From: Hysterium pulicare CBS 123377
Lineage: Eukaryota; Ascomycota; Dothideomycetes; Hysteriales; Hysteriaceae
DNA: 64,000 nucleotides
NCBI GenBank assembly: GCA_000467715.1
Contig: AJFK01000295.1
Location: forward strand, 1 to 64,000
Direction of reading: 5' to 3'
The stretch's first letter is position 1; each line of letters begins with the position of its first letter. Both the position numbers and the translations under genes were made by a program. The notes below the pieces were generated by a model that saw only the letters and a list, made by a program, of their open reading frames with translations, was not told the origin of the DNA and made no database searches. Positions 5,655 to 57,792 of the stretch are shown one piece after another.

Positions 5655-6256
5655 CCTACCTCCCGAAAAACAGAAACTTACTTTCAGAGCCCCAAGGCAC
5701 AAGCCGCAAAGGCCGCAAAGCGCCGAACCCAGACGGAAACACACGAGATCAAGCACGAGGCTTGCGAAGAAGGGAGGAGGCGTTGGTCGAGAAATGAGGC
5801 CGGGTTGGAGGTGGAAGGTAGTTGTTTTTTTATTAGGATTGGGTAGAGTTATGGTGGAGCGGGAGAAAGGATTTTCCGCGCCGGGGTGGGTGGTGAAGGA
5901 GGGAGGGCACGTGGGTTTAGCTTCATTGGAAGTACCAACGCAACGGGCATAAGGTGGTATTGCACATAGACAGTGCAAAGAGAGGTCCCAAGTTCAGAGA
6001 GGAACAAGTGTCACATTCCGAGACTAGAAGGAGGTAGATTATGAAGAGAAAATGAGAAGTCATTAATTGAGGCCGTAGAAAAAGTACCAAGCAGGTTAAG
6101 CATCGCGTCATGAGTGAGTGAGTGAGTGCAAAGCATCTGAACAAGCAAAGACCAAAGCTAAAGCAAAAGCATCGCCAAACCGAGTCGTGTATTCCCAATT
6201 CTGTCAAGCCCTATTATCTCCATCTTCCCAGGTCCTTGTCTTCCCATGTACCCATT
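5655..6256. other. Intergenic between two minus-strand genes
   Basis: An uninterpreted plus-strand frame (5461-5952) continues out of the minisatellite into here. A GAGT microsatellite-like run lies at about 6111-6127. No supportable gene. Confidence 0.4.
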
Positions 6257-15515: not shown

Positions 15516-16051
15516 CGGAATTCATCTCAGGGCATTGTTTGGCAATAACTTTGGGGGTTGTTGTTGTGGACACACGATCGTTGCTGTGAAAGCCAATTGG
15601 GATCCACAGCCTTGTGAAAGGTGACGGCCCGAGAGCCCCTCAGCAAACACTGAAAAGTGAGGCGGTGCAATATGAGAGAATGCCGGTGAGATAAATTCCT
15701 CGAGTTTCCTAGAAATGTCGATTCAATACTGAAATATACGTGAACGTGATTTCGTATTCCATTTCCCGACGTGTTCCTGTACTGCGATCAATTGCACCTC
15801 TCCACCACTAACTCTTCTAAAAATCGTGGCGCGGAAGAAGTGGCTTTGCTTAGCTAATAGACTAGAATTATTTCGGCTAGGCACCTTGGCGTTCGAGGAT
15901 TGAATCATCTTTGACTTCGCCTTCATCGAGTCTTGTCGCAGTCAACTCCAGGGCCTGGCCAACCCAACATCTTACCTTGCGCATTCTACGATCGATTCAC
16001 CTCCGAGTCAACTTCGTCTGCCTTCTCAACGGCCTCACGACTCCGTCGACG
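15516..16051. promoter_or_regulatory. Shared divergent promoter of the HID1-family gene and XPB
   Basis: The two ATGs are 536 bases apart on opposite strands, and nothing else is coded between them. An in-frame extension of the XPB frame back to 15911 exists, but it has no homology feel and is better read as leader. Confidence 0.5.
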
Positions 16052-18457
16052 ATGCCTCCGAAGCGAAAGGCAGCAGCAAAGGAAGCCGACAGCGATGAAT
16101 ACCCATCTGAAGAAGAGGCTGCTTTGAGCGATCAGGAAGTGATCGATAGGTTAAAATCGAAGTATGATGTCGTAGCCCAGGCTAAGAAGATTCGTGCGGT
16201 GCACGCAAACGACCCTGCCTCTCATTTGTTCCGAAAATGTGATGCATGGGATGCACAGCTCAAGCCTGATCATGCCAGCCGTCCTCTGTGGGTTGACGAT
16301 GCTGGACGTATCATCCTAGAGTCATTTAGTCCCGCCTTCGCTGATGCCCAGGTATTCCTCATCAACATTGCCGAACCGCAGTCTCGCGTGTCTCGCATGC
16401 ACGAGTACACGTTGACACCCCATAGCTTGTTCGCCGCAGTTTCTGTAGGGCTCTCGACGGAAGATATAATAGGACAACTAGATAGATACTCCAAGACAAT
16501 TTTGTCTCCAAATGTGCAGTCCTTCATCCGCGACTCGACTTCGTCGTTCGGGAAGACAAAGATCGTCCTCAAACGTACCCTATCCTTCATCGAAAGTGAC
16601 GACCCAGCCATCCTCCGCACTCTCCTTCGAGACAAAATTATCGCCGAATGTCGTGTCGATAAGTCAGATGATCTGTTAAAAGAGGCTGCCCCAAAGCTGG
16701 GCGGTCTGGCTATTCCTGGCACAAAGATGGCAGCTGGAGCCAATCAAGTTGCGCAGCCGGCACTCCCCCAACAGCAGAGCGATATTCTGGCATCTATACG
16801 AGAAGAGGATGATGACGAGGAAGTTGCGCAAGTTCATGCCTTTCAAATCAGAAGCGAGGATCGAGAAGTGGTGATCAAGAGATGCAAAGATATCCAACTC
16901 CCTCTCACCGAAGAATACGATTTCCAGAATGACGAGGTTAATGCCAACCTGGAGATAGATCTGAGACCGAGTGCTCAAATACGAGACTACCAAGAACGAG
17001 CTCTGGGGAAAATGTTTGGAAATAGCAGAGCGCGATCGGGCATTATAGTCCTACCTTGCGGTGCCGGTAAGACTCTAGTAGGCATCACCGCTGCTTGCAC
17101 CGTCAAAAAGTCTATCATTGTATTGTGTACAAGTGCCATGTCTGTGGTACAATGGAGAGCAGAATTTATCAAATGGTCTAACGTCGACCCGAATGACATC
17201 GCGGTGTTCACATCGGAAAGCAAGAACAAGTTTCCTCGGAATGCGGGTATAATCATCAGCACGTACACCATGATTACTTCTTCTCGAAACCGCTCCTACG
17301 ATTCTGAGAAGGTGATGGAGTTCATTCGATCTCGGGAATGGGGTCTGCTTATCGCTGACGAAGTGCACGTTGTACCCGCGAACATCTTCAAAAAAGTTAC
17401 CTACTCTATCGCCTCGCATTCGAAGTTAGGCTTGACTGCCACTTTGCTTCGTGAGGATGACAAAATTGACGACCTCAACTTTCTCATCGGTCCGAAGCTG
17501 TACGAGGCGAATTGGCAGGAACTTGCAGAGCAGGGCCACATTGCTAAAGTCCAATGTGCTGAGGTGTGGTGTCAGATGACTCCTGAATTCTACACAGAAT
17601 GGTTGAAGCCCTCCTCCCAACAAAAGAAAGCTCTACTTTCCATCATGAACCCGAGAAAGTTCCAAGCCTGTCAATTCCTCATCGACTACCACGAACGGCG
17701 AGGTGACAAGATCATTGTCTTTTCCGACAATGTGTATGCCTTGGAGAAATACGCCAAAAAGCTCAACAAAGCCTACATTTACGGTGACACACCTCAAGCC
17801 GAACGATTGCGCATTTTGGAGAACTTCCAGCATAACGAACTGGTAAATACGATCTTCCTATCCAAGATAGGTGACACTAGCTTGGATCTGCCGGAAGCGA
17901 CATGCCTTATTCAGATATCTTCTCACTATGGTTCTCGTCGCCAGGAAGCCCAACGACTTGGTCGTATTCTTCGGGCTAAACGGCGTAACGATGAAGGTTT
18001 CAATGCCTTTTTCTATTCGCTTGTTTCAAAGGACACGCATGAGATGTACTATTCCTCGAAACGTCAAGCCTTTCTGGTCGACCAAGGATACGCGTTCAAG
18101 GTCATTACTCGCCTTGAGGGTCTAGAGCAGCGGTCAGATCTCGCGTTCTACACGCCACAAGATCGCCGTGAACTTCTTATGGATGTTCTACTCGCGAAGG
18201 ATGCAGATGGGGAGGAAGAAAAGATCAACGGTGACATGTTTGGAAGTAGATTTGCTTCTGGATCCCGCTTCAAAAAGAAGAATGGTGCACGAAGGATGGC
18301 TGGTACTTTGTCCGAGCTAAGTGGTGGGCAGGATATGGCCTACATCGAGTACAACAAGAGCAGGAACAAGGACTTCAAACGGAAGGGCATCAAGAACGAT
18401 TTCATTAGGAAGTTGCAAAGGGGTGCTGTGAATGCAAAGAAAGCGGCAAGGGAGTGA
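16052..18457 (+). CDS. SSL2 / RAD25: TFIIH core helicase XPB/Ssl2 (801 aa)
   Basis: This is the 3'-5' SF2 DNA helicase/translocase of TFIIH, needed for promoter opening by RNA polymerase II and for nucleotide excision repair. The gene has no intron. I chose the ATG at 16052 (MPPKRKAAAKEAD), which starts the usual acidic and basic N-terminus, over an in-frame ATG 47 codons earlier. Visible motifs are the N-terminal LWVDDAGRIILESFSP domain, Walker A PCGAGKT (about residues 335-341), DEVH box (about 436-439), TATLLREDDKI containing the RED motif of XPB, and motif VI QRLGRILRAKR near residue 633. The length is close to that of yeast Ssl2 (843 aa) and human XPB (782 aa). No residue looks damaged. 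Confidence 0.97.
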   Translation: MPPKRKAAAKEADSDEYPSEEEAALSDQEVIDRLKSKYDVVAQAKKIRAVHANDPASHLFRKCDAWDAQLKPDHASRPLWVDDAGRIILESFSPAFADAQVFLINIAEPQSRVSRMHEYTLTPHSLFAAVSVGLSTEDIIGQLDRYSKTILSPNVQSFIRDSTSSFGKTKIVLKRTLSFIESDDPAILRTLLRDKIIAECRVDKSDDLLKEAAPKLGGLAIPGTKMAAGANQVAQPALPQQQSDILASIREEDDDEEVAQVHAFQIRSEDREVVIKRCKDIQLPLTEEYDFQNDEVNANLEIDLRPSAQIRDYQERALGKMFGNSRARSGIIVLPCGAGKTLVGITAACTVKKSIIVLCTSAMSVVQWRAEFIKWSNVDPNDIAVFTSESKNKFPRNAGIIISTYTMITSSRNRSYDSEKVMEFIRSREWGLLIADEVHVVPANIFKKVTYSIASHSKLGLTATLLREDDKIDDLNFLIGPKLYEANWQELAEQGHIAKVQCAEVWCQMTPEFYTEWLKPSSQQKKALLSIMNPRKFQACQFLIDYHERRGDKIIVFSDNVYALEKYAKKLNKAYIYGDTPQAERLRILENFQHNELVNTIFLSKIGDTSLDLPEATCLIQISSHYGSRRQEAQRLGRILRAKRRNDEGFNAFFYSLVSKDTHEMYYSSKRQAFLVDQGYAFKVITRLEGLEQRSDLAFYTPQDRRELLMDVLLAKDADGEEEKINGDMFGSRFASGSRFKKKNGARRMAGTLSELSGGQDMAYIEYNKSRNKDFKRKGIKNDFIRKLQRGAVNAKKAARE

Positions 18458-31704: not shown

Positions 31705-33756
31705 TCACGGACCCTTGTTGATATCGAGGCATTTGATCATGTCTTCCAGCGGACGTACGACATCGTTGTAGAGCGAGTCCTGCATTTCAGGCTTTTGCAG
31801 ATCTTTCCCGCACCCGAAGTCGCAGTCAAGACATTTCTCGACGATTTCTTGGTACTTCGGCCCCAGTGGTGAACGGCCGACCGCAAGTCGACGCGCATTG
31901 GTCAGATCATGGGGATCCACTGGCTCCCATTGTCCGATTGAAAGAAGTGCCACCCCAAGGTTATAGAGTGTAAGATTACGAAGGCCATGCGAGAGGTACG
32001 GATTCTGTAGACTGCTAGGGGCAATATAGGCTTGTGAGCCTTGAATATCGTCCATTGAATTAGTGCAGAGTTGTGCGCAGCTATCCGGAAATGAAGCACT
32101 GATATGAAGTGTTCTGACAGAGTCCTCGGAGAGTTGCATGCGAGAGCCGAAAAACGCGACGTGGTGTAGATTCCAATCTTCGCAAAGCCAGGATGTTGAA
32201 TGATATTGAAGGACACCCGTGACCATTCGGTGAGCGAGTTTAAGTTGGCCCACCAAATCCAAAGTATCCAGCATGGTAGGTTGTAGTATTTCGGCAACTG
32301 ATACCAATTCAGCCATTTCCGGATTCATTCGTCTAGCCGGATAAAAGGTGTGCCTGTACTTTTGGGGTGTTTCAAGAAAACCCAAAGGTAAAGTTTCTAC
32401 ATCTGGACTTGAGCTAGGTGAGAAGTTTGCGCTGAGTAGGTGCCGACACATATTTCCGATTTGGCGTAAGTCTACAAAAGTAGATAGTTGGCAGCCAAGC
32501 GTGGATGGAGAGGTAATGGTAAATGGTCTGGTCGATGCATGTGATGGTGACAGTGGAGAGGTCGCGGCATGAGAAGGTAGCCCGTCGCCCATCTCCATAA
32601 ACTGAACCCGCTTTCGTTTCGTCAATTTCTTTGCCGTTCGTTTAGATGTAGCTTTGATATGCAGATTAATATCACTCTCTTGAGCATCGGCAAGCTGCTC
32701 TTCCAATACTCTAGTAAGTTGTGCGGCTTCGGATCCGGGAGAGGCTTGTGGTGTCGGTAACATGGAAGTAGGTGACTTTGACGATTGCACGAGTAAACGT
32801 ACGGGACAATGCAAGCTATTTTGCCTGAGAATTGAAGAACATTAAGTCAGTTATTCTCGCACACGTAGCTCATGAGGATCACAGACCTATGAGCCACAAC
32901 GTTATCATTTTGATGATACAATATTGCCAGATCAAGCCGCACAGTGTCTTGAACTTTTGCGTCTAGAAACAGCTTTGCATAATGACGTGTGTGAGCTGCA
33001 TCAGAGCAGCACCACGAAGACGTGATATCATCGTAGAGCGTTTGAGAAGCATGTCGAACTGCATTGTACTCTGACGGAATGGCCAGGTGCTTTTCGCAAG
33101 CTTTTGGAATGCAGGTGGATGAGCGGAGGTCTGACAATTGAGAAAGTAGCAGCCTTAGATCGGCATTGTAAGCTCGCAGACGCTCTAGTTTCCTATCATA
33201 ACTATCTTTTTCGAAAGCAACTTTGACGGACCTGCGGAGGCGGCGTACTGTGTCTTTGAGTAATTCTTTCTGCACGCTGTCAATAAAAGGATCTTTTTCA
33301 TGTGCGCATGTGTCTGCTTATGTAAGGTCCGGCTAATGCGGAGTTCAAACTCACCTCGACTTTCTTTTCGCTCAGAACATCGAAACATCTCAGATCCGTC
33401 AATACTTCTTCAAGAAGCTCTTTAGTGTCTTCTACGACGACCTTACAAGTGCCATAATTCGATGTGAGGAGTTTGCTCAGACGGCGGTCAAGGTTCTGGT
33501 CACTCCAGAGGTGATGAAAGGCATTCTCCATCATCTCATCCGCCTTGTGAGTCTCAGAGGGCATCCCTAGACGCAACAAGAGATGGCAATCATTCCTAAA
33601 TACCTGTCTCTGCAGTTCGTACTGTTTCCATAGTCTCCCAACCTCTCTGGAATAATGTCGAAACGTCGTTATCTTGTCAAATGTTGATTCGTACGCTTTG
33701 ATAGCTTCAATGACTATGGGTAAGACACCGAGAACTAAGCCGACAGTCTCCGCCAT
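31705..33756 (-). CDS. DUF7580-type protein with HeLo-like N-terminus and kinase-like C-terminus (634 aa)
   Basis: Exons 33756-33355, 33269-32887 and 32824-31705 sum to 635 codons. The N-terminus (MAETVGLVLGVLPIVIEAI) is the hydrophobic start seen in many fungal DUF7580 proteins and resembles that of HeLo-type cell-death domains. A helical region follows to about residue 265. A low-complexity linker (about 270-370) then leads to a C-terminal domain with degenerate kinase features: LCEDWNLHHVAFF in the catalytic-loop position, then AYIAPSSLQNPY and LYNLGVALLSIGQWEP. No intact HRD or DFG is seen, so kinase activity is unlikely. The family is thought to act in fungal nonself or stress responses, which is inference. 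The second intron has an unusual GTCTGT donor. The gene is divergent from the zinc-finger gene at 34074. Confidence 0.82.
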
Positions 33757-34073
33757 TGCAAATGCTTGATATGAAAGAGGTACTAGCCAGTGCGCTTTGT
33801 GCAGTATATGTAGAAATTTCCGTGCAGACACCGAAGCGCTCTAATATGCAAGGCTGAAGGCAGTGCATGCATCCTTGGTTGATTCGCCTACCGTCCGGTG
33901 AGCGCTCCAGTTGACGAAAGCGCTGTGCTACCCCACCCCCGAGCACCTAAATTGTTGAAGGGTGCTGAACTTTCAATACTTTCCATGACCTGCGCTTTAC
34001 GCAGTTTCGTCAGTCTTCTTCGTACAACTATCTCTTACGATTTCCTGAAATATCAAGTCATACCCAAGAAGGT
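33757..34073. promoter_or_regulatory. 317-base divergent promoter
   Basis: This lies between the ATGs of the DUF7580 gene (minus) and the zinc-finger gene (plus). No clear TATA box is seen. Such a short shared region suggests that the pair may be co-regulated. Confidence 0.4.
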
Positions 34074-37000
34074 ATGGAGATTCATCCCGTAACAAATGAT
34101 ACTGCTTCTACTTCAGAAGCGCAGATCATCGCAGCCCAGAGCCAAACGCAATCGTCGTTTGGGAACAGAGTTGACTTTGCGGGTGCTTCGAATTTGGGTC
34201 AACCTTGGCTTGCATCCCGTATATGATCCTACTTCCATTTCTATATCCCTCGGTGTTCACTAACTAATACGCTAAGGATCTGCTGCGAATCCTACAGCCT
34301 CGGAGGACGAACCCCAGGGAAAGAATCCTCAAAGATTAACATCGCTGGCTGATAAGGATGATGGCTTTTTTTTCATAACGGCTAATAGCCCGGTCGGGTT
34401 CAAACGAAGGAATGTTATGCGGGTAGTGCGCAAGAAGGCCATGAACAACTACTTAGAAAACAGGCCAAGACTAGTATCGAGTACTGGCCGACTTAAGAAC
34501 GAAGCGAGAGATAGAAAGTCGGGACCTGGACCTGGACTTCACAGCAAAGCCGTTACCAGTTCCAGGATAATAGAGACAGGTGACCGGGAAGACGAAGATG
34601 ATACGACTCATAGGGAATCCTTAAAACCTCACCCACACGAAAGTAGGAGACATCACTCCTCGCTTATCAGATCAGCAATATCTAGTGAACCTAAAGAACC
34701 TCAGATATTAATCCCCGACCGATTCGGAGTTGAAGGATGTGCCCCGGGGGATGCCCTGCTGGCCAATCCAGTTGGTAGTACTTTGGCGTTTGCTGTCCTG
34801 AATAGTAATGCGTCTTCGAAGTCTCTAACTCAATCTAATGAAGCCGGCGATGATCTCGGTGGTTCTAGGGTAACGGAAATCACCCACCAGCAAGGGGAAG
34901 CTATCCTGTCTCATGAAGAAGCATTGAAGACATACAGAAACCAAAGCTTTCAGCAATCCCCGGAAACCCGGGTCCAAACCAACCGTCACAAGACCATTAC
35001 TGAAACCTTTCACTACTGCCTTCAACGTTTTGAGATTAATTTGGAAGCAGCCGAACAGGGCATGTGTATACCATGGGCGATCGTTAAGAAATTGCAACGA
35101 AGTCATGGACTTCTCAAGCTATGGGGAGAAGGATATGGAGCTTGCAATGATTCTCTGGATCTTCTTGTCTCGAAAGCGACGAAGGTTAAATATACTGCAC
35201 TCTCGTTCTTGCGATCACTCAGTCGGACATTGACGAATAGTACGTATGACAACCTGGCTGTGGCTTAACACATGATTAATGCTGCATTAGGATTGTTGCC
35301 ACTTGTCCGCCCCCACTTAGACATCCAACCGCACGGATCGAATCCTACGCTTACGAAACCGATGCTTCGTATTAAGCGTGATGATGTTCGAGAAAGTAAC
35401 AGCGGCGGTTTTGGCGCATACGACAGCGATGAATCACTCGACTACCCGGATGACAGCATCGATGATATCATTGAAGACATTAAAACGGATGTACAGTGCC
35501 TCATGGATCTGGCACCTATTCTCAAATCCCTTGGGCAGGAAGAGGTAACTGAGGTCAACCGCACGCCAATCGTAGCCGAATATTTAAATGCTTCGCAATT
35601 TTATGCTCGCTCGATATCCGAGAAGTATCCAAAGGCAAGGTTTGATATTGTCAATAAATTGGGCGAAGCTAATTGGGATCGTTTCAAACGGTTGGCGGAA
35701 GAACGAGCAGCCGCCGCCCAACGCACCGAATACACTGCTTCAAACGATCGTGGAGTGGCCCAAACCATAGCGGCCTCTTCGCAGTTCGACGATTCGGGTC
35801 TTGGAAGCTCAGTTCCCGGCCAATCGCAATACACTGCGACAATGTTCTCTGTCTCATCGAGTGTGACCACTAGAGACCAACCAAAATTACCTCCGCTACC
35901 AGATGCAGCCAAGCAAGGGAAGGCGTTCGAATGCAATGCTTGTGGAAGATTGATTAAAGTCACTCGGTTCCGAGAATGGAGGTAAGTCATCCGTTTCCTA
36001 TGGTCCATCACTGTGCTAACCGTTCCAAAGGAAGCATCTCATGACAGATCTCCAACCATACACGTGTCCCTTAGAGTCATGTGTAGACGAAAAAATGAGT
36101 TTCAAACAGCTTGACCACTGGCTCGCGCATCTACAGGTACATCATCAGTTCATACCGGATAACCCCAGCTTGATATGCCCACTGTGTTCAGAAGAGACCG
36201 GAGAAGGTCTCGGTACCATTGGCATGCATATCTCAAGACATTTAGAAGATATTGCGCTAACTGCTATACCTCCAAATGTTGACTCGGAAGACGAGGAAGA
36301 AACCGATGCTAGTTCCTATTCACAGCAGTCACAAGCAAAAAATGAAAGCGTTCAGGGCGTATTGCAACCATCTCCTGCGCCTGAAGACCCAGACGGACTG
36401 TTGGAAGATTCCATCAATGAGTTCCAGAAAAAGGCCCAAGCAGCCTTACGAGACCTCAAGTGCTTCAGCCTCGATCAACTCGACGAACTGCTTGAGGAGG
36501 GCAAAGGCTTGAACGTTGATATTCCTGAACTTAAGCTCCTGGATCGAGTTGTGCAGCAACTCAAGTGGCTTCAGCAAGCAGATAATATAATGAAAAAGAA
36601 AAAACTATTAACCCTCCAGGACGTTGATAATCTCATCCAGCACGGTCTAGAACTCGGCATTCCGGATAAACACCCCGACATTCTCGCATACCAAGAGAGG
36701 AAGGTTCAAGGAGAGCTTTGGGAGCGTAAAGCTAAAGAACTCATGTCGGTTGAGAATGCTCACGACCAAACTGCTCACTGCCAGCTGCTGGATGCGCTGT
36801 CCAAGCAGGCCACTACCCTATCAATTTCACCTGAAACACTCGCTAACGTCCATGCGATTCTCAAGAGGCAACGAGACGCTCAAATCTATGAGCCATACAA
36901 TCACGAAAATCATCACCAATCCTCTCTTTACCTCGAATGCCGCGAGTGTGACGGTCCATGCACTAAGGACAATCACCAACCAGTCTCTCTCGACTCTAGG

Positions 37001-37762
37001 TCCTTATTGTTCGATGACTTTTCAAAGGAGCAAAATACAGAAACAACTAGTAAGCTTGAAGGTAGAAATACTCAATTACCTTCGGCGACTCTCGTGTGGA
37101 ATGATATTAAACCCGCATCCAATCTCACACAAGCTCGGTCCAATATTCAAGAGAAAAGTAGCAAGGTACCTGGTCTGAAGGGTATCGACGACATGCAGAG
37201 CAACGATATGACATCGGAAACGTTTGTCTGGGATCATGCGAATGGCGAAACCGTCAGGCAGAGAGGCCGAAAGGGTTTAACCGGTGAAGACCGTGAACAA
37301 CTTTCCGAGATGAGGAGGGCGAGCGCGTGCATGGACTGTCGACAGAAGAAAAGGAAGGCACGTAACACTGCTAGATTGTGTCTGAATTATAACAGTGTTT
37401 CTAACACTCCCTAGTGCATCCACGCTCAATCGGCAGCCAACCTTCCAACCACTAGTGATAGGGAAGCTCCTAATATCATTGTGCAAGATAGTAGGCCTAA
37501 AAAGGACAGACGCAAGGTAAAAGAGGTGACATCATGCATTGATTGTCGGCGGAATTTCATGGTGGTACGTCACACTACCAGATGATGTCTAAAGTATAAT
37601 ATTGTCTCTAACCCTCTCTAGTGCACTCACATTCGGTCGGCAGCCAACTGTTCAACCAAAAGTAGCATGGAAGCCCCTAGCGGCATTGTGCAAGATATCA
37701 GGACTCAGGAGGACGAACGCAAACAAGGAGAGCACGGTGGTTTGACCCCCCCTTCCAGATGA
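34074..37762 (+). CDS. Large fungal zinc-finger protein with duplicated C-terminal finger (1138 aa)
   Basis: Six exons: 34074-34218, 34277-35239, 35291-35981, 36031-37357, 37415-37564 and 37622-37762, totalling 1139 codons. Near residues 70-100 the motif FFITANSPVGFKRR plus basic helix resembles the N-terminal element of many fungal regulators. At about 585-630 there is a C2H2-like pair (ECNACGRLIKVTRFREWRKH, then CPLESC) of the type common in fungal multi-domain proteins. A helical region at about 720-840 (CFSLDQLDELLEEGKGL) recalls PLU-1-like repeats. The C-terminus begins RGRKGLTGEDREQLSEMRR and then carries two copies of a C-x2-C-x6-C-x-H motif (CMDCRQKKRKCIH and CIDCRRNFMVCTH). Each copy is split by a 57-base intron before its third Cys. 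The intron in the first copy would be GC-AG (GCACGT). If it is not spliced, the protein stops 19 codons later. Confidence 0.78.
37328..37740 (+). repeat. Tandem duplication (207-base period) of a zinc-finger exon and its intron
   Basis: Unit 1 starts at TGC 37328 and unit 2 at TGC 37535. Aligned features are the C-x2-C codons, a 57-base intron with CTAAC branch and CTAG end, then TGC-x-CAC and a TCGGCAGCCAAC block. After these come GAAGC(T/C)CCTA and CATTGTGCAAGATA. The donors differ: GCACGT in unit 1 and GTACGT in unit 2. Confidence 0.85.
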
Positions 37763-39181: not shown

Positions 39182-40443
39182 ATGTTCAGAATTCCGAGGA
39201 TAGAATCCGCGCCTGCTTCGACAGCTGGTAAGTCTCTGTCATGCTCCAATACACACCTGCCGTATCAAACATCCTTCGGGAAACCAACGGAAGAGTCTTA
39301 TCTGCCAAGAATATTTACGTGACTGAGGGAACTACGTACTAACATATCACAGCATACAGCGAAATTCAAGCGCGCGTACGACGCTTAAGAGAAGTCAGAG
39401 AAGAAGTCTATCGCCAACGTCAGAACCCGTCTTCCAGCGGACCACCCTACACGTCCAGTCTTCTCCAAGTTGAAACGATTCTCCGCGCCTGGGGAAGCCA
39501 CGAAGTCAGAGCAGTAAATCATCAGCAACTGGATACGCCTCAAGCGATTGTCTCTGCTGCAGTCGAAACGCGAACTTGGCTTATGGAGAGAATCCAAGAG
39601 ATCGAGGATATGCCACATCAAGCACTTATGCGACTGCTGAGAAATGGTGTCGAGAACCCTGATCGGAGCGAGTGGGATGATGGGCAGTTTCTGCTGATGG
39701 CACTATCGGACAACACCGCGTCGGTTGAGGTAAGTCTTGACTTTGGTTTTGCGGTTGCTTTTGAGAGGAACATGGCCCAGCGAAATGTTGAGCATAGCAA
39801 CTGGAATGAGGGTGAATTGGCCCAAGCGGTATCTGTCCGGCACCTAAGAGATCGGGGGTCGTGGCAGAGGTCTATCGCGAGGAAAGTGAAGGTGCATGGT
39901 TTCACGGTTCCAGTTGCTCCGGATGTTCTAAAGAAAGAGGAGGAGATGTGCCCTATCTGTCGAGAAGACTATCTTTCCCATGAGCGCCCGGTGGCAGACA
40001 TTATGTTGGACTATCCTGTGAGGATCGTATACTGCGGTCATACCATTGGAAGATACTGTCTGAGTGAGTGGGTCAATTCGGGACTGGAAAACAGCGGGAC
40101 CTGCCCCATGTGTCGCGAGGGCATTTACCCGCGGAAAGGGCCCAAATTGTCGCATGAGATGAAACAGTTTTTGTTAAATGACGGTAAGTTCACCGAGATA
40201 TGGCAGAGCACAGGATTCGGCGGAGACATGATCATCCAAGAGTTAAAGCGGTTGTTGGCGGATTGCATTATTCTTCAGATCTTGGCGGAATGGGTTGCCA
40301 CATCGTGGAAGGATCAAAGCATCCAGAACGAGATACATCGACGCAGTGAGGAGGCCAAGGAAGAGGTTGGTAGATTCGGGGTACCCCAAGATATTTGGGA
40401 TCGTTTTCTGGAGAGTTGGCAAAGCTATCGCGAGTCTAGATGA
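39182..40443 (+). CDS. RING-finger protein (378 aa)
   Basis: Exon 1 (39182-39227) codes 15 residues and exon 2 is 39353-40443. The 125-base intron has GTAAGT, CTAACATATCACAG, and the join keeps frame (379 codons with stop). The N-terminus is helical and charged (ARVRRLREVREEVYRQR). The RING lies at about residues 213-265: CPICREDY, a long loop, CGHTIGRYC, then CPMCREG. The fifth zinc-ligand position of a usual RING (H or C) is Gly here, as in many fungal members. Helices follow to the end. The protein is likely an E3 ubiquitin ligase of unknown substrate, and one of two intact RING genes of similar design in the window. Confidence 0.85.
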
Positions 40444-41568: not shown

Positions 41569-44500
41569 ATGGTAGCTGTTGCCCAGTCATTGCCACCTCG
41601 ATTTCCTTGCTGGTGCAAGGCCGTTTATTCCTGGGGTGGAGAGGTATGTTAAACCCAGCGCGAGACGGGCACTGGATGCTGAGCTCTTTGATTTAGACAA
41701 AACGCGATCTCGGCTTTATCGAGGGCGATCTAATAGAATGTCTCAATGCAGGCGATGGGTCATGGTGGATGGGACGGTTGAAGAGGGACAGGCGCATGGT
41801 CGGGCTGTTCCCCTCGAATTTCGTCCAAGTCCTGGATGAGAGCTTTCAACCTGGAAGCCGAAATCCGAGTCCACTGATAAAGCCAAATGGAGGGGGAAGC
41901 ATATCAAGAGCAAACAGTCCAAATCCAACTAAACAGCCTCCGCAGAAGGCGAAGAGCATGTTCCGAAAACCCTTCACCGCATACGCTGCTGCAAGCTCGC
42001 CCAATCCCGCCGCCGCAGCTCGAGAGAGACAACAGAAGACTGGTGGATTGTCGCCGAATCCGAACGGCAGTCTTTCAAAGCATAGACCGTATTCGTCCAT
42101 GAAGCGGTCCTCGACAGAGAGTCGAGAAACGCCATCTCCAAATACATCTTTAAATAATCTATCACAGCTTCGGGCAGTATCTCCAGCACCTCGACCGAAG
42201 TCTATGCTTCAAACCTATTCCCGCGCAGCTTCGCCAGCTCCACCAATGCAAGCCCAAACACACTCCCGAGCAGTCTCACCGGCGCCGTCGTTCCAATACC
42301 AAGCCTACTCGCGAGGCCCTTCGCCATTGCCATTCCGCGATCGTGACTCCCCACCTCCGCCTCCACCTCCTCCACACAGGGTCGCATACAATCCAAGCAG
42401 AGCTCCTTCGCCAGCACCCTTCCGTGAACCCGAATACAGTAATGGATATCATACTCCTGCTCCGCGCTCTCCAGCACCGGAATCGCCCGTGAGAGGTGGA
42501 TTTACACCTTCACCGCTGACGAATGCGATGAACGATGTGATGTCTTCTTTGCAGGATATGGGCTTGTCGGGAAGCGGGAACTCTACAGATGAACCGACTA
42601 CTCCTCCGAACGTTTGGTCTCCCGAGGCATTTGATCAAGTGTATCAAGCATCAGCGAAGAAACTCAGACCGCAGACCTCCCTTGGAATTGGAAGTCAAGT
42701 TGCCTATCAAGATGACGACGAGGAATTCGCAGGTTCACATCAGCACCCTTCTCAATACGACGAGGGTCCACCGCAAGTTCATAACTATGTTCAGCGAATG
42801 GAGAGCCGCCTACGAAAGATGCAACAGCAAAGCAGTCCGCGGCCACCTGATGAATTGTTTATACCTCCAGATTCGATGGGTCCGCCTCCAGCTGTTCCCC
42901 CCAAAAGCCCTCTGTATCAAGGACGACCAGCTTCCTCGATGGGTGATGTGCAACCTGATGTTAGTAGAAAAGGCTCCAATCCACGGACATTGAAACATCG
43001 GAAATCTGCATACGAAATAGGGCGTGGAATGCTGAATCGGACTTTTACAACCAAGACAACATCTACCACAACGACTCATAGCAGTAGCACAACGCATCAC
43101 AGCCTGATGTCCGGACATTCGGCAACCAACATGAGTGCAACAAGTGCAGGCAGCTACTATCGCAAGAAACTTGGTGGAAAGAGTCGACCTTTCAGTGTTA
43201 TGGACACTCGAGACACAGCCGGAAAAGGTTATGGTTTTGATGATGGACGACCTGAAACACCTTTCACAGGCATTTCATACCACTCCAGTCATGACTCTCA
43301 TCAACCTAGACCTGCTACAAGCGCGCAAGGTGATTGGTCTGCGAATGTTCCGGATGGAAGAGATCCATTAGGAGGGTTGATGGCGCCAAAGCCTAAGAAG
43401 AGCGGTTTCTTTCGGAAGGTCATCGAGTCTGCTAAAACGTCGGCTGCTACAGCCCGGAGTACTATTGCTTCTGGTCAATCCAGCAGGCCTGTTTCAAGAC
43501 AAAGCAGAACGCTTCCGAATGGTGTCACGTCGATATCTGGTGGGGTTCCTTCAGACTCAAGCGCAGCTAGAGATATGGGTCTAGGTGGTGCGGTAGACTG
43601 GGTTCAAGTACGACGAGACGTGAACCGATCGAATTCTCTGAGCAAGAACGAGAGAGTTGAAAGGGCCGAGCGCTGTCAAATGATGGACATCCCAGTCATC
43701 AATCCTATCGATGCGCTCTATGAATCCGCCGAAGGTGATGAAGGTCTTGACGGACTGCCCATAGCGGAGCCGACAGACTTCACCGCCAGCAATCTCACAC
43801 TTGTCGACAAGAGCGCACGTTTTATCAACAATATTCCCCTAGGCACCACTGCAGCAAGCTTAGCTCAGGGTTATGTGTGCAGACCTTACAGGAGCGATGT
43901 GCAGCGTCTTCGAGCTATATTCACTTGGGTCAGTGAGCGGGTATCCTGGGAAGAGGACTTCGAGGGTGAGGTCGATACTCGCCATGTTATCCAGACGAAA
44001 CGCGGGTGTTCTTCTGAAATCGCGATGCTGGTGGCGGAAATGTGTGCCTCAGTAGGACTCCATGCTGAAGTAGTCAAAGGATATTTGAAGACTCCAGGCG
44101 AGGCTCTAGACCTAGACATGGTCGCTCGTCCTAACCACTACTGGAACGCAGTCATTGTGGATGGCGAATGGCGAATCATGGACTGCTCCTTGGCCGGCCC
44201 GACAAACCCGAAACGAAATCAGTACTCCAGCGTGGGCTCGCAAGTTGCGGAATCCTGGTATTTCCTAGCTCGGCCCATGGAGATATGCTTTACGCATGTT
44301 CCACTTCTGCCAGAACAGCAGCATATCTGTCCCCCACTCCCACATGATATCCTCATGGCTCTTCCCTGTGCATGTCCACCATATTTTAAGAACGGTATGC
44401 ACGTGGTTGACTTTGACACCAGTTTGCTGAATCTCGAAAATCTCGAACTAGCCCATGTCTACATCAATGTTCCAGAAGATGTAGAATGTGTGGCGGAAAT

Positions 44501-45340
44501 TGAAGCTCGCGCCTTTGCCCAGGATGTTGATGGAGATTACTTTGAAAGCGGAGACGTCATTCGAAAACCAGCACTTGCTCAAGCTGAATGGATAGGGGGC
44601 CAGAAACGATACACAGTGAAAGCACTATTGCCAGGAGACGAAGGACATGGGGTGTTGAAGGTCTATGCGGGAAAACGTGGATTGATGGTAAGTTCATATG
44701 CATCTTAGCTTTCTCTCCTAATCAATGATATCGGTACTAATGAATGATCCAGCACTCCATTAAATCCAACCCTCACCCTCTTGCCTTTGGCCTCCCCCTA
44801 ACGCACACTGGCACTAATCCCCCCTACTCCTTTTTGACCCTCCATCCAACTCCACACGCTCAACGTCATGACCTCTACGTCGCGCAACCTCAATGCTCCC
44901 GCTTGGTCCTCAACAACACCTTCGTATTCGCCATCCGTCAACACCCGTCCTCCCTAAACCGTTCTCCAGATCTCTCCTCCAACCCCTCCACGACCGGCCG
45001 CGCATCTCCGAACCCGTTCGCCCGCCCAGCCTCCGCCATGAGCATGAACAGTATCTCTATCTCTGGTTCCGCTTACTCAAACCCGAGTTCGACGTCGAAC
45101 ACAAGCTCGAATTCGAGTAGTAACCCAATGAAACCTGCCAAACTCGCCGTTCAGACGCCCTCGGGGAAGATTATTAGACTGCTGCGGAAGAGCGAGCATA
45201 TGGGTGGAACGTCTGAGAACGCGGACGGGAGTGTTTGGGAAACTGTTATCAAGATTGGGGAGCGAGGCATCTGGAGGGGCCTTGTGCTTGCAGATAGGAG
45301 TGCTAGATGGTGTGTCTTTGGGGAGTGGGAATGTGTTTAA
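41569..45340 (+). CDS. CYK3: Cytokinesis protein 3 (Cyk3) homologue, SH3 and transglutaminase-like domains (1217 aa)
   Basis: Exons 41569-41643, 41697-44687 and 44753-45340 total 1218 codons. The SH3 domain is at residues 8-70 (FPCWCKAVYSWGGE, split by intron 1, then GDGSWWMGRL and GLFPSNFVQVL). A long Ser/Pro-rich disordered region (about 75-650) has repeated SRAxSPAP motifs and a proline run that could bind SH3 or profilin. The transglutaminase-like domain (about 700-850) has NHYWN and WRIMDCS, matching the His and Asp positions. The Cys position of the usual GxCxxxA motif falls on Ser (RGCSSEIA), so it is probably not an active enzyme, as known for Cyk3. In yeasts Cyk3 promotes septum formation at the division site through chitin synthase. 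A matching role at septation here is inferred. Confidence 0.93.
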
Positions 45341-46975: not shown

Positions 46976-48187
46976 TCACTGCTGGTTGTCAGCGGACGGC
47001 TCAGCAATAGAGACATCAACATCATATGATTTCCACCATTCGTGTAAGCTCATATGATCGTCGTACAGCGCGTCTAACAAGCCTAGTTGTTGTTGGAACC
47101 GGGGTCGGTACTCGTTGATGAGATGCTGGATACCCTCTGGCGTCGTATCATACAGGACTCTTAAGAGCATAAGAATACTGTAGTAGCTACCCAGTACCAT
47201 GCGGGTATGATCAGCATGATTGTCAATCCTGAAATTGAGTTCAGCAAGATTTGCTGAGGTGCTAGCGTCCGCAACTGGGACGCGACGCCGCTGCTCAAAC
47301 AGCACATGTCTACAGTAAGGACATGTGTTGTTATTATTCTCGGTGGTGTTGATATATGAGGCCATGCAGGGAAACCCTACCAAATGTTGGCATGATAGGC
47401 GCACCGGGCGATGCTCATTTTCATCGTACTCCTCCCGACATATGCAGCAAATATCTCCCTGGGGAACCTCTGATACTTGCACGATCGAGGCGATATCTTC
47501 AACTTTAGTATCGGGACCGGCATTTTGGAGTGGAACATCTGAGAAGAAAGACTCCTGCGCCCGCCGAAGCGAGCATGCCTCCCGCATGAGATCGGAGCGT
47601 GCCACCTCCAACATAAGGACTGACCAGGCCATCCCGTCCAGAAAATGATGCTTGTCCATTTCTGCAATGATAGCGTTGCGGTCTCCAATGATCGCGGGAT
47701 TCAAGAGACACTTGATGGCGCGCCTACGCATGTTAAGAATTCTAGCCTGAGCTTCTTCCATCATAGATTGAAAATTAATATCCATGAAGTCAAGATACTC
47801 CTCGCTAGCGTAATCTGCCACCTCCTGAGCATCTGACATGGCTTGAACCAGTTCTTTCTCATCATCTGAGACTTCATCTGCGCCGCATGTCTCAAGTTTC
47901 GCTAGGACGGCTTCGGGTGTGGTGCCTTGCGCTCGAAGTCGAGCTCCGACTTGGAATAAGTTTTCCAAAACGGGTGTCTGATCATCTTCAGGCGAAATTG
48001 CAATCGGTGTGCGAGCCAGTGGCGCTGGCTCACCGGTCATAGGTGGCGTGTGAGATGATGGCAGTGGCTCTCTTGCTGAGGGTGGTAAAGGAGATATGGC
48101 AGAATTTTCGCTAACCGTCTCCACTTGATTTCCTCCGGCCTGTTCTGACTGACGGTCTTCCATTCGGTCGTTCATTTTGGTTCGCAT
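46976..48187 (-). CDS. RING-finger protein (403 aa)
   Basis: A single open frame. The N-terminal 70 residues are Pro/Ser-rich and acidic. Helical segments follow (about 85-230), then the RING at about 245-290: CCICREEYDENEH, SCQHLVGFPC and CPYCRH. The position of ligand five is Gly, as in the RING protein at 39.2-40.4 kb, and both have a helical C-terminus. The two may be distant paralogues. The start could also be Met5 or Met9. The protein is likely an E3 ubiquitin ligase. Ten bases upstream ends a short frame on the same strand (48197-48442). Confidence 0.8.
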   Translation of the reverse strand: MRTKMNDRMEDRQSEQAGGNQVETVSENSAISPLPPSAREPLPSSHTPPMTGEPAPLARTPIAISPEDDQTPVLENLFQVGARLRAQGTTPEAVLAKLETCGADEVSDDEKELVQAMSDAQEVADYASEEYLDFMDINFQSMMEEAQARILNMRRRAIKCLLNPAIIGDRNAIIAEMDKHHFLDGMAWSVLMLEVARSDLMREACSLRRAQESFFSDVPLQNAGPDTKVEDIASIVQVSEVPQGDICCICREEYDENEHRPVRLSCQHLVGFPCMASYINTTENNNNTCPYCRHVLFEQRRRVPVADASTSANLAELNFRIDNHADHTRMVLGSYYSILMLLRVLYDTTPEGIQHLINEYRPRFQQQLGLLDALYDDHMSLHEWWKSYDVDVSIAEPSADNQQ

Positions 48188-48196
48188 ATAAATTGG

Positions 48197-55706: not shown

Positions 55707-56073
55707 TGTAGAAGGGTGCATGCTATTGGTTAGGCTTTCGCTGAGGCAGGTGGACAGGTTCGGCTAGCGTGAGATGGCTTAGACGTCAGTTGTTCAGCCT
55801 TCCTCATTTTCTCCATCCTTTCCCCACCTCCTCAACTCCATTCATACCGCCAATCATTCAGTTACTGTCATCGTCTATACACCCTTTAATCAAGTTTCTC
55901 AATGAAATCAGTCCTCTTAGTACTTCGGCTCGAGCTCATCCCGATATTAATTGAACGAGCTTCCCAACGCCCTCAGCCTTGCGGCCGTCAGGATACCTGG
56001 AAAATTCTAGGCATTTCAAATCCCAATTATCTTCTTCAATTGATCTTAGGGAGAGAGTTTTCTCGAAACAACA
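55707..56073. other. Promoter and leader of the HET gene
   Basis: C/T-rich tracts at about 55797-55870. An upstream ATG frame (55902-56156) overlaps the HET start in another frame and may be an uORF. Confidence 0.35.
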
Positions 56074-57792
56074 ATGGAGAATCGTCGGCGCTTCCAGTAT
56101 CGCAAACTGAAGCACCCTCTGGAGACTCGGATGCTTCGCATACTACCAGGGAATGAAGCCGATGAACTTAGCTGCGTTCTAAAGCATGTTCGAATAGGAA
56201 GGCGATTTCTCCGCAGAAGAACAGTGTATAAAGCAATATCGTACACATGGGGAGATCCAGAAGACAAAACAACGATTAGGTGTGAAGACATCAACTCATC
56301 GAAAGGATACGTCAAGATCCCAACCAATCTGTGCAATGCACTCGCTCAATTCCGGAAAACTGATTTCAAGAACCAATTGATCTGGGCAGATGCTATTTGT
56401 ATCAATCAAGAGGATCTCGAGGAGAGAGCCGCACAAGTGCAGATCATGAGACAAATATTTGCCAACGCCTCCTCGGTTACTATCTGGCTCAGCAAACAAA
56501 ACGAAGAATTACGAGAAGCTTGCAGGATTATAGATACTCTTATTCACTATTACAAGTCTGAAGAGTTCGACAGAACTGACGCATATCGCACACGACCAAA
56601 ACTCAAGCCGTCTGAGTGGATCCTTTGCGCAGAATTTTACAAAGCGACATGGTTCTCTCGTGCGTGGGTGGTTCAGGAAGCCGTTGTCGCTTCGAAGCTT
56701 GAATTTTGCATGGGAACATGGGCTAAGGCTTGGGCTGATGTAGTGCTCGTAGCTGAATGTACAAGACGATTCGAAAATTCTGCGAGACAAATTTCTCACT
56801 ATCTCAAAGTTCTCAACTTGCTCACGCTCATTGCAGTGGAGAACCATGGGTTCATAAATCGCCACAGTCCCCATTCGTTGGTGTATTTGGTATCCTGGTG
56901 TCGGCACCTAGAGGCAACTGATCCACGAGACCGGATATTCGCGCTCTTAGGTCTGAGCAGCGAACGAGATTCTGCATTAATGAAGTCAAATTATTCGAAG
57001 AGTGTGGAGGAGGTCTATCGAGATTTTGCAAAATATGAACTGCTCAAGCGGAAAGACCTTGAGATTCTCTCCTCTGCAACGGAATCTTCCATGTTTGATC
57101 TACCTTCTTGGGTTCCGGATTGGACCTGCCTACTACCAGAGGGCATTCCGCTAGCCTGTCGGGGTGTTTTTGCAAATGTCTTGATTGTTGCGGGATATAG
57201 CGGTGAACCAGGTCTCTATCTCTCGAACGAGGAAAACACATTGTACGTCAAAGGCCTAATTTTTACAAAACCGATCGCCCTGGGAGAAGTCGTCCTGAGT
57301 GGAGACGATAGTGATATATACGCTGAAAAACTACGAAAGAACTATGAAGTAGCATGCCAAGGTCCAGATCCCTATCCAAATGGCGAACCGCGCATAAATG
57401 CATTTGTCAGAGCCCTGACATACGACTGTATGTCCTGGAGCGAGGAACTCGACCAAACGCATATCACAATGGAAGATACTTTGGCCTATCTTGCTGCTTG
57501 GCATATTGGACCTTTACCACAATCGTCAGATTACGGCCCGAAACAATATTATATAGCGACTCTAATATGGCCTGATCGTCGCTTTTGTCTGACCGAAAAC
57601 GGATACGTTGGCTGGGTATCACAAGCGACGAAACTCACCGACCGTATCGCAATGTTCAAGGGAGGCAAAGTCATGTATGTCCTTCGACCAGTGGGTGATG
57701 GGAATTATAAACTTATTGGCGAATGCTATTTGTACGCCGCGAACGGATCATGTGTTGAGGGGAAAGAGTTGGAATATATACCCCTTGTTTGA
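56074..57792 (+). CDS. HET-domain (heterokaryon incompatibility) protein (572 aa)
   Basis: A single open frame with no intron and no damage. The HET domain is at about residues 50-205: YKAISYTWGDPED, then ADAICINQED and SVTIWLSKQNEEL, and the third block RAWVVQEAVVA (about 200). The C-terminal part has DPRDRIFALLGLS and YRDFAKY, usual in this class, and PSWVPDWT. Such proteins mediate cell death after fusion of unlike mycelia, or act in related immune-like responses. The specificity partner is unknown. No NACHT, WD40 or lipase partner lies next to it. Confidence 0.93.
   Translation: MENRRRFQYRKLKHPLETRMLRILPGNEADELSCVLKHVRIGRRFLRRRTVYKAISYTWGDPEDKTTIRCEDINSSKGYVKIPTNLCNALAQFRKTDFKNQLIWADAICINQEDLEERAAQVQIMRQIFANASSVTIWLSKQNEELREACRIIDTLIHYYKSEEFDRTDAYRTRPKLKPSEWILCAEFYKATWFSRAWVVQEAVVASKLEFCMGTWAKAWADVVLVAECTRRFENSARQISHYLKVLNLLTLIAVENHGFINRHSPHSLVYLVSWCRHLEATDPRDRIFALLGLSSERDSALMKSNYSKSVEEVYRDFAKYELLKRKDLEILSSATESSMFDLPSWVPDWTCLLPEGIPLACRGVFANVLIVAGYSGEPGLYLSNEENTLYVKGLIFTKPIALGEVVLSGDDSDIYAEKLRKNYEVACQGPDPYPNGEPRINAFVRALTYDCMSWSEELDQTHITMEDTLAYLAAWHIGPLPQSSDYGPKQYYIATLIWPDRRFCLTENGYVGWVSQATKLTDRIAMFKGGKVMYVLRPVGDGNYKLIGECYLYAANGSCVEGKELEYIPLV

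Follow-up and report, generated by a model that had tools for sequence, protein, structure and literature searches.

The window analyzed here, a 64,000-nucleotide (nt) stretch of Hysterium pulicare CBS 123377 DNA (contig AJFK01000295.1, positions 1 to 64,000; C232:1-64000 of a 37.2 Mb genome in 596 contigs), carries on its forward strand a gene that, as predicted from the sequence, is a chimera. Its modeled exon 4 unites three unrelated pieces: a Cys/His-rich segment, a fragment of the PLU-1 domain of a KDM5-type histone demethylase, and the left half of a motif resembling the first half of a Zn2Cys6 cluster. For the 3' end of this gene we favor, with a probability of about 0.6, a reading in which the segment encoding the half-finger was duplicated in tandem, the donor of the intron in copy 1 then changed from GT to GC, and the resulting GC-AG intron most likely still works. 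The duplication and the probable GC-AG intron are real and ordinary in kind; the KDM5 fragment is more unusual than the intron, and it is the part worth following.

Tandem half-fingers and the probable GC donor of copy 1

The repeat search found a single family of direct repeats, consisting of two forward-strand copies of 188 nt at 37328-37515 and 37535-37722 that are 72% identical, ungapped and spaced 207 nt apart. Each copy contains an intron of 57 nt (37358-37414 in copy 1 and 37565-37621 in copy 2), and both introns have TCTAAC near the 3' end and the acceptor CTAG|TGC. The copy 1 intron has the donor AAG|GCACGT, the branch site CTAAC and the acceptor CTAG, and the copy 2 intron has a GT donor, GTG|GTACGT, with a score of 7.75. 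When both introns are removed, the copies give CMDCRQKKRKCIH and CIDCRRNFMVCTH, in which the spacing C-x2-C-x6-C-x-H occurs twice, and the spliced tail reads RRASACMDCRQKKRKCIHAQSAAN...KEVTSCIDCRRNFMVCTHIRSAAN... in a frame that stays open to the TGA at 37760-37762. These results bear out the initial annotation, made from the letters of the window, which had described a tandemly duplicated, intron-bearing, finger-like exon whose two copies yield the same motif once 57-base introns with a common branch site and acceptor are taken out. Because the 207-bp unit minus a 57-nt intron leaves 150 nt, the frame survived the duplication and the gene gained one new middle exon of 50 codons (37415-37564), which joins the right half of copy 1 to the left half of copy 2 and is followed by the last exon (37622-37762). 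In the ancestral gene the motif would have stood at the C-terminus with its third cysteine just 3' of a phase-0 intron, and the duplicated segment would have run across that intron.

Donor sites were scored with base frequencies at 2022 Fusarium introns, taken from PMC5677156, and the scores are approximate for Hysterium pulicare. The GC donor at 37358 scores 2.83 and is the best-scoring donor at that place. With 37414 as the acceptor, introns of at least 30 nt and donors considered from 37313 on, none of the five GT donors keeps the frame open into copy 2; four of the six GC dinucleotides do, and the one at 37358 alone both scores above zero and restores the motif. The earlier claim that only the GC donor keeps the frame thus holds for the cognate acceptor, but it fails once acceptors at every AG as far as 37500 are admitted: 32 of the 117 donor-acceptor pairs then keep the frame open, GC 37358 being the best of them (2.83, with the next at -0.92). 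Among the 13,682 GC dinucleotides counted over the two strands of 113,204 bases, comprising the window and L024-L028, 3 reach a score of 2.83 or more, and that of copy 1 is the only one of the three with a branch site and an acceptor in range.

The copy 1 intron combines a GC donor and an AG acceptor with a strong consensus at the remaining donor positions, the usual branch distance and a normal length (57 nt). It agrees with fungal U2-type GC-AG introns in having G at -1, A at +3, G at +5 and T at +6 around the GC, as well as CTAAC and a TAG acceptor, and it differs from them in being predicted from sequence and in having a homologous neighbor copy with GT. Taken together, these features indicate that the intron is probably of the GC-AG type, a class that accounts for 1.009% of annotated fungal introns according to PMC7072748, and that is known to mislead gene prediction in euascomycetes (Rep et al., 2006, cited through PMC8703528). 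The ancestral donor was presumably GT, since copy 2 has GT and GT is the common donor, and the change in copy 1 would then have followed the duplication. The single T-to-C change proposed in the initial annotation stands on these two grounds, and the paralogue in L027 is ambiguous on this point. The GC donor is most likely functional because the other favored bases have been kept (AAG|GCACGT), and it would act as an ordinary GC-AG donor, perhaps at lower efficiency. The principal product would then have both half-fingers, and the likely by-product would be a transcript that retains the intron and stops at the TAG with which it ends. Homologous GT and GC introns that occupy matching positions in tandem copies would provide a clean natural test of a T-to-C donor change, and gene predictors that accept only GT would misannotate the chimeric gene.

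The Zn2Cys6 cluster has the spacing C-x2-C-x6-C-x5-12-C-x2-C-x6-8-C, and by inspection the duplicated motif appears to be its first half, with putative zinc ligands. Copy 1 (CMDCRQKKRKC) has C1-C3 followed by a histidine and shows the first half with its basic residues (C-x2-C-R-x2-K-x2-C), the basic KRK being present as in related motifs. Unlike the Zn2Cys6 family (Zn_clus, PF00172), it has no cysteine after C3, a histidine that follows C3 and an intron before C3, and it lies under the Pfam cut-off. Copy 2 retains C1-C3 and the spacing C-x2-C-x6-C-x-H, has lost KRK, and carries one more cysteine, eight residues past C3, which could be C4, without C5 or C6. Neither copy has the six cysteines of Zn2Cys6, and the tail scores 8.9 bits against PF00172, for which the cut-off is 21. 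Searches of the motif against PDB gave matches to Leu3 and Lac9 at E of 3 or more, none of them significant. A complete zinc finger was ruled out on these grounds, copy 1 offering C1-C3 only and copy 2 at most C4, with no significant match in the libraries; of the zinc-finger exon of the initial annotation, the finger-like duplicated exon remains but the full finger does not.

Likeness to the Zn2Cys6 family extends to the segment that precedes the motif, which weakly matches a Zn2Cys6 protein of the same genome (C14). For the segment around copy 1, the match to this protein has E=0.043 and that to a half-finger gene on C248 has E=0.0016; against Pfam Zn_clus the C14 protein passes the cut-off with 26.7 bits, whereas the C248 protein stays below it with 14.6. 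The C248 gene has a candidate intron at K|C (5760-5814, 55 nt, phase 0, GT donor, score -2.48), which was placed by expectation, and the same site and phase, with a look-alike continuation after the cysteine, suggest that the K|C intron may be shared with it. As proof of an ancient intron this candidate in L027 was weakened, 129 of the 154 donor-acceptor pairs being open and better donors lying elsewhere. Two Zn2Cys6-like clusters in tandem, CTKCRQNKKKC... and CLNCRRRKRKC..., were seen by eye in one frame at C161:61834-61914 (L038, minus strand).

Alternative readings of the 3' end

Four bases downstream of the GC donor lies a competing GT donor (37362-37363, forward strand; CAC|GTAACA, score -1.22). 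When it is joined to the acceptor at 37414 the frame shifts, reads to 37452 and then stops, and without splicing the protein ends at the TAG of 37412-37414 after 18 extra residues; both of these early ends agree with the initial annotation. The copy 1 intron reads open for 18 codons until the TAG at its end, whereas the copy 2 intron has a stop after 6 codons. It had been proposed from these outcomes that a regulated choice between the GC donor and the +4 GT donor yields either a long form with two fingers or a short form with neither. Copy 1 resembles the tandem donors that lie four bases apart (GTNNGT) in that its second GT is at +4 and shifts the frame, but its first donor is GC and its second is weak, with no G at +5 or at -1 and a score 4 bits below that of the GC donor. 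The data set behind the preference for a GT at +4 reportedly comes from mouse. A GT at +4 occurs in copy 2 as well and scores -5.77. A GT at this position is part of normal donor preference, according to PMC1449888, and in the fungi surveyed in PMC6176087 intron retention is the commonest pattern of alternative splicing and exon skipping makes up less than 1%. The long and the short form listed initially were both recovered, but a further outcome had been overlooked: splicing from the GC donor to 37621, the acceptor of copy 2, would leave out the middle exon without disturbing the frame and yield one complete hybrid motif. With the +4 GT weak (-1.22 against 2.83) and in line with normal donor preference, retention the commonest pattern in the surveyed fungi, and a complete motif kept on skipping, the proposed switch is unlikely, and a regulated choice between the two donors in particular is very improbable.

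The most likely alternative, in itself rather unlikely, is that the tail past 37414 is a relic. The T-to-C change would in that case have broken the intron of copy 1, so that the gene ends at the TAG of 37412-37414 with a tail of 18 residues encoded by the former intron; copy 2 would be a decaying 3' untranslated remnant. Several observations favor this. The divergence of the copies is overall near neutral, with synonymous (dS) and nonsynonymous (dN) divergence of 0.51 and 0.36, a dN/dS of 0.71 (bootstrap 0.28-1.85) and differences of 11/15/13 by codon position; the intron is no less conserved than the exons (44/57 against 92/131 identical positions); and 22 residues are identical among the 43 shared codons (P=0.16, neutral simulations). 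The open run of 18 codons up to the TAG of the copy 1 intron, and the prevalence of retention in surveyed fungi (PMC6176087), fit the relic as well. Against it, the copies differ at 52 positions yet show no indel over 188 nt (P about 0.006 if indels are taken to arise at 0.1 per substitution), and the GC donor has retained its context. Both copies have also kept all four putative ligands and an open frame, which happened in 1.0% of the neutral simulations; the ligands taken by themselves survived in 2.9% of runs, and no stop arose in 30%. These results are weak evidence that the metal ligands may have been kept by selection.

The dN/dS of the copies, their codon-position differences and the equal conservation of intron and exons also weigh against the reading that we prefer, the duplication followed by a working GC-AG intron, and so do four further points. 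The survival of the ligands was picked as a test after the data were seen; the donor context of copy 1 is in part inherited from its GT ancestor, so that the figure of 3 in 13,682 suggests more independence than there is; the donor weights were derived from Fusarium introns and not from the host species; and an open frame of 150 nt occurs in 146 of 1437 overlapping downstream windows in a stretch taken as noncoding.

It is more improbable than any of these readings that the finger tail in its entirety is an artefact or does not encode protein, the gene ending elsewhere and C-x2-C-x6-C-x-H having arisen by chance. The shortness of the motif, the lack of a Pfam domain above cut-off and the E values of 3 or more for Zn2Cys6 proteins in PDB are in keeping with such a chance origin. 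However, the left half of copy 1 shares a frame of 464 codons with the Cys/His-rich and PLU-1 parts, and its surroundings show the weak matches to the finger-bearing C248 and C14 genes noted above, of which C14 passes the Zn_clus cut-off.

A captured KDM5 PLU-1 fragment

The PLU-1 domain fragment of exon 4 lies at 36413-36883 on the forward strand (Pfam PF08429, E=3.1e-39, 157 residues) and covers profile positions 113-268 of 338 at about 136 bits (135.5-136.2), against a cut-off of 28.5. Two loci in the genome exceed this cut-off, one on C230 that matches all 338 positions and the host gene with its positions 113-268; a third match, on C240, remains under it at 20.1 bits. The open frame on C230 also passes the Pfam cut-offs for PHD, JmjC and C5HC2, and because these accompany PLU-1 it is a KDM5-type histone demethylase gene. 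In the protein of the chimeric gene, Pfam gave no JmjC, PHD or C5HC2 match at E up to 10. The fragment is thus like the PLU-1 domain of KDM5/JARID1 (PF08429) over its 157 residues, and 115 of 150 aligned residues are the same in the C230 gene, but it is all that the chimeric gene has of such a protein, set between the Cys/His-rich segment and the half-finger.

At the DNA level the fragment and the C230 gene are 76% identical over 479 columns, with gaps that keep the frame, and their Pfam scores for PLU-1 are 136.2 and 165.9 bits, respectively. Their dN/dS is 0.22 (bootstrap 0.12-0.37), with differences of 23/18/50 by codon position. Since free drift over half of the divergence would give a ratio of about 0.5 or above, constraint probably acted on the captured piece through most of its history, as judged from a pairwise comparison. 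The divergence of the fragment from KDM5, and its position within a single open frame, make a misassembly improbable. A PDB sequence search with the PLU-1 fragment and with the KDM5 PLU-1 domain gave no real relative, the best matches (E of 0.4 and 0.01) being to unrelated proteins, and NCBIfam gave only chance-level matches. A keyword search of the literature for the fusion found no paper that matched at least 4 of 5 terms; among 156 papers that matched at least 3 of 4 terms, the 15 titles listed dealt with KDM5, other histone modifiers or regulation in fungi. A KDM5 fragment inside another gene would represent a dateable domain capture in which the frame was kept and which looks selected. 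It is a rather improbable proposal that the protein is a new chromatin-associated or DNA-binding fusion, in which the PLU-1 segment captured from KDM5 remains under purifying selection and is combined with the Cys/His-rich segment and half of a Zn2Cys6 motif at the C-terminus. Such a fusion might share partners or compete with KDM5, and how many half-fingers it has (0, 1 or 2) would depend on the efficiency of the weakened GC donor, by way of retention, skipping or full splicing.

Exon layout of the host gene and its neighbors

Upstream of exon 4 the gene was modeled on the forward strand as open frames joined by GT-AG introns, with 5' exons at 34074-34218, 34277-35239 and 35291-35981; the donors of these introns score 0.81, 6.79 and 9.0, and the start codon and the first intron are uncertain. 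Exon 4 itself (36031-37357) runs through the Cys/His-rich segment, the PLU-1 fragment and the left half of finger copy 1 without interruption, within a stop-to-stop frame of 464 codons at 36020-37414. Its Cys/His-rich segment has a paralogue on C107 (41% identity, E=8.9e-21) and looks C2H2-like by eye. Compared with Pfam, the segment gave no C2H2 family over the cut-off, and the best finger-like match was zf-C2HC_3 at 12.7 bits against a cut-off of 24.

Short introns with CTAAC-type branch sites occur in the window, as do HET and DUF7580 genes, and together these features suggest a filamentous ascomycete. The Pfam scan of the neighboring genes covered 10 frames of the window. On the minus strand a DUF7580 frame in the region 31708-33840 adjoins the 5' end of the chimeric gene, with a Pfam score of 31.9 bits for 31708-32841; the minus-strand frame at 33298-33837 has no Pfam match and contains MAETVGLVLGVLPIVIEAIKAYE, which we take to be typical of DUF7580-type fungal proteins. 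Downstream of the chimeric gene are two RING-finger frames on opposite strands, at 39343-40440 and 46979-48196. Other frames in the window are transglutaminase-like with an added SH3 (41697-44705), of the XPB-type helicase kind (15881-18454) and of the HET family (56050-57789).
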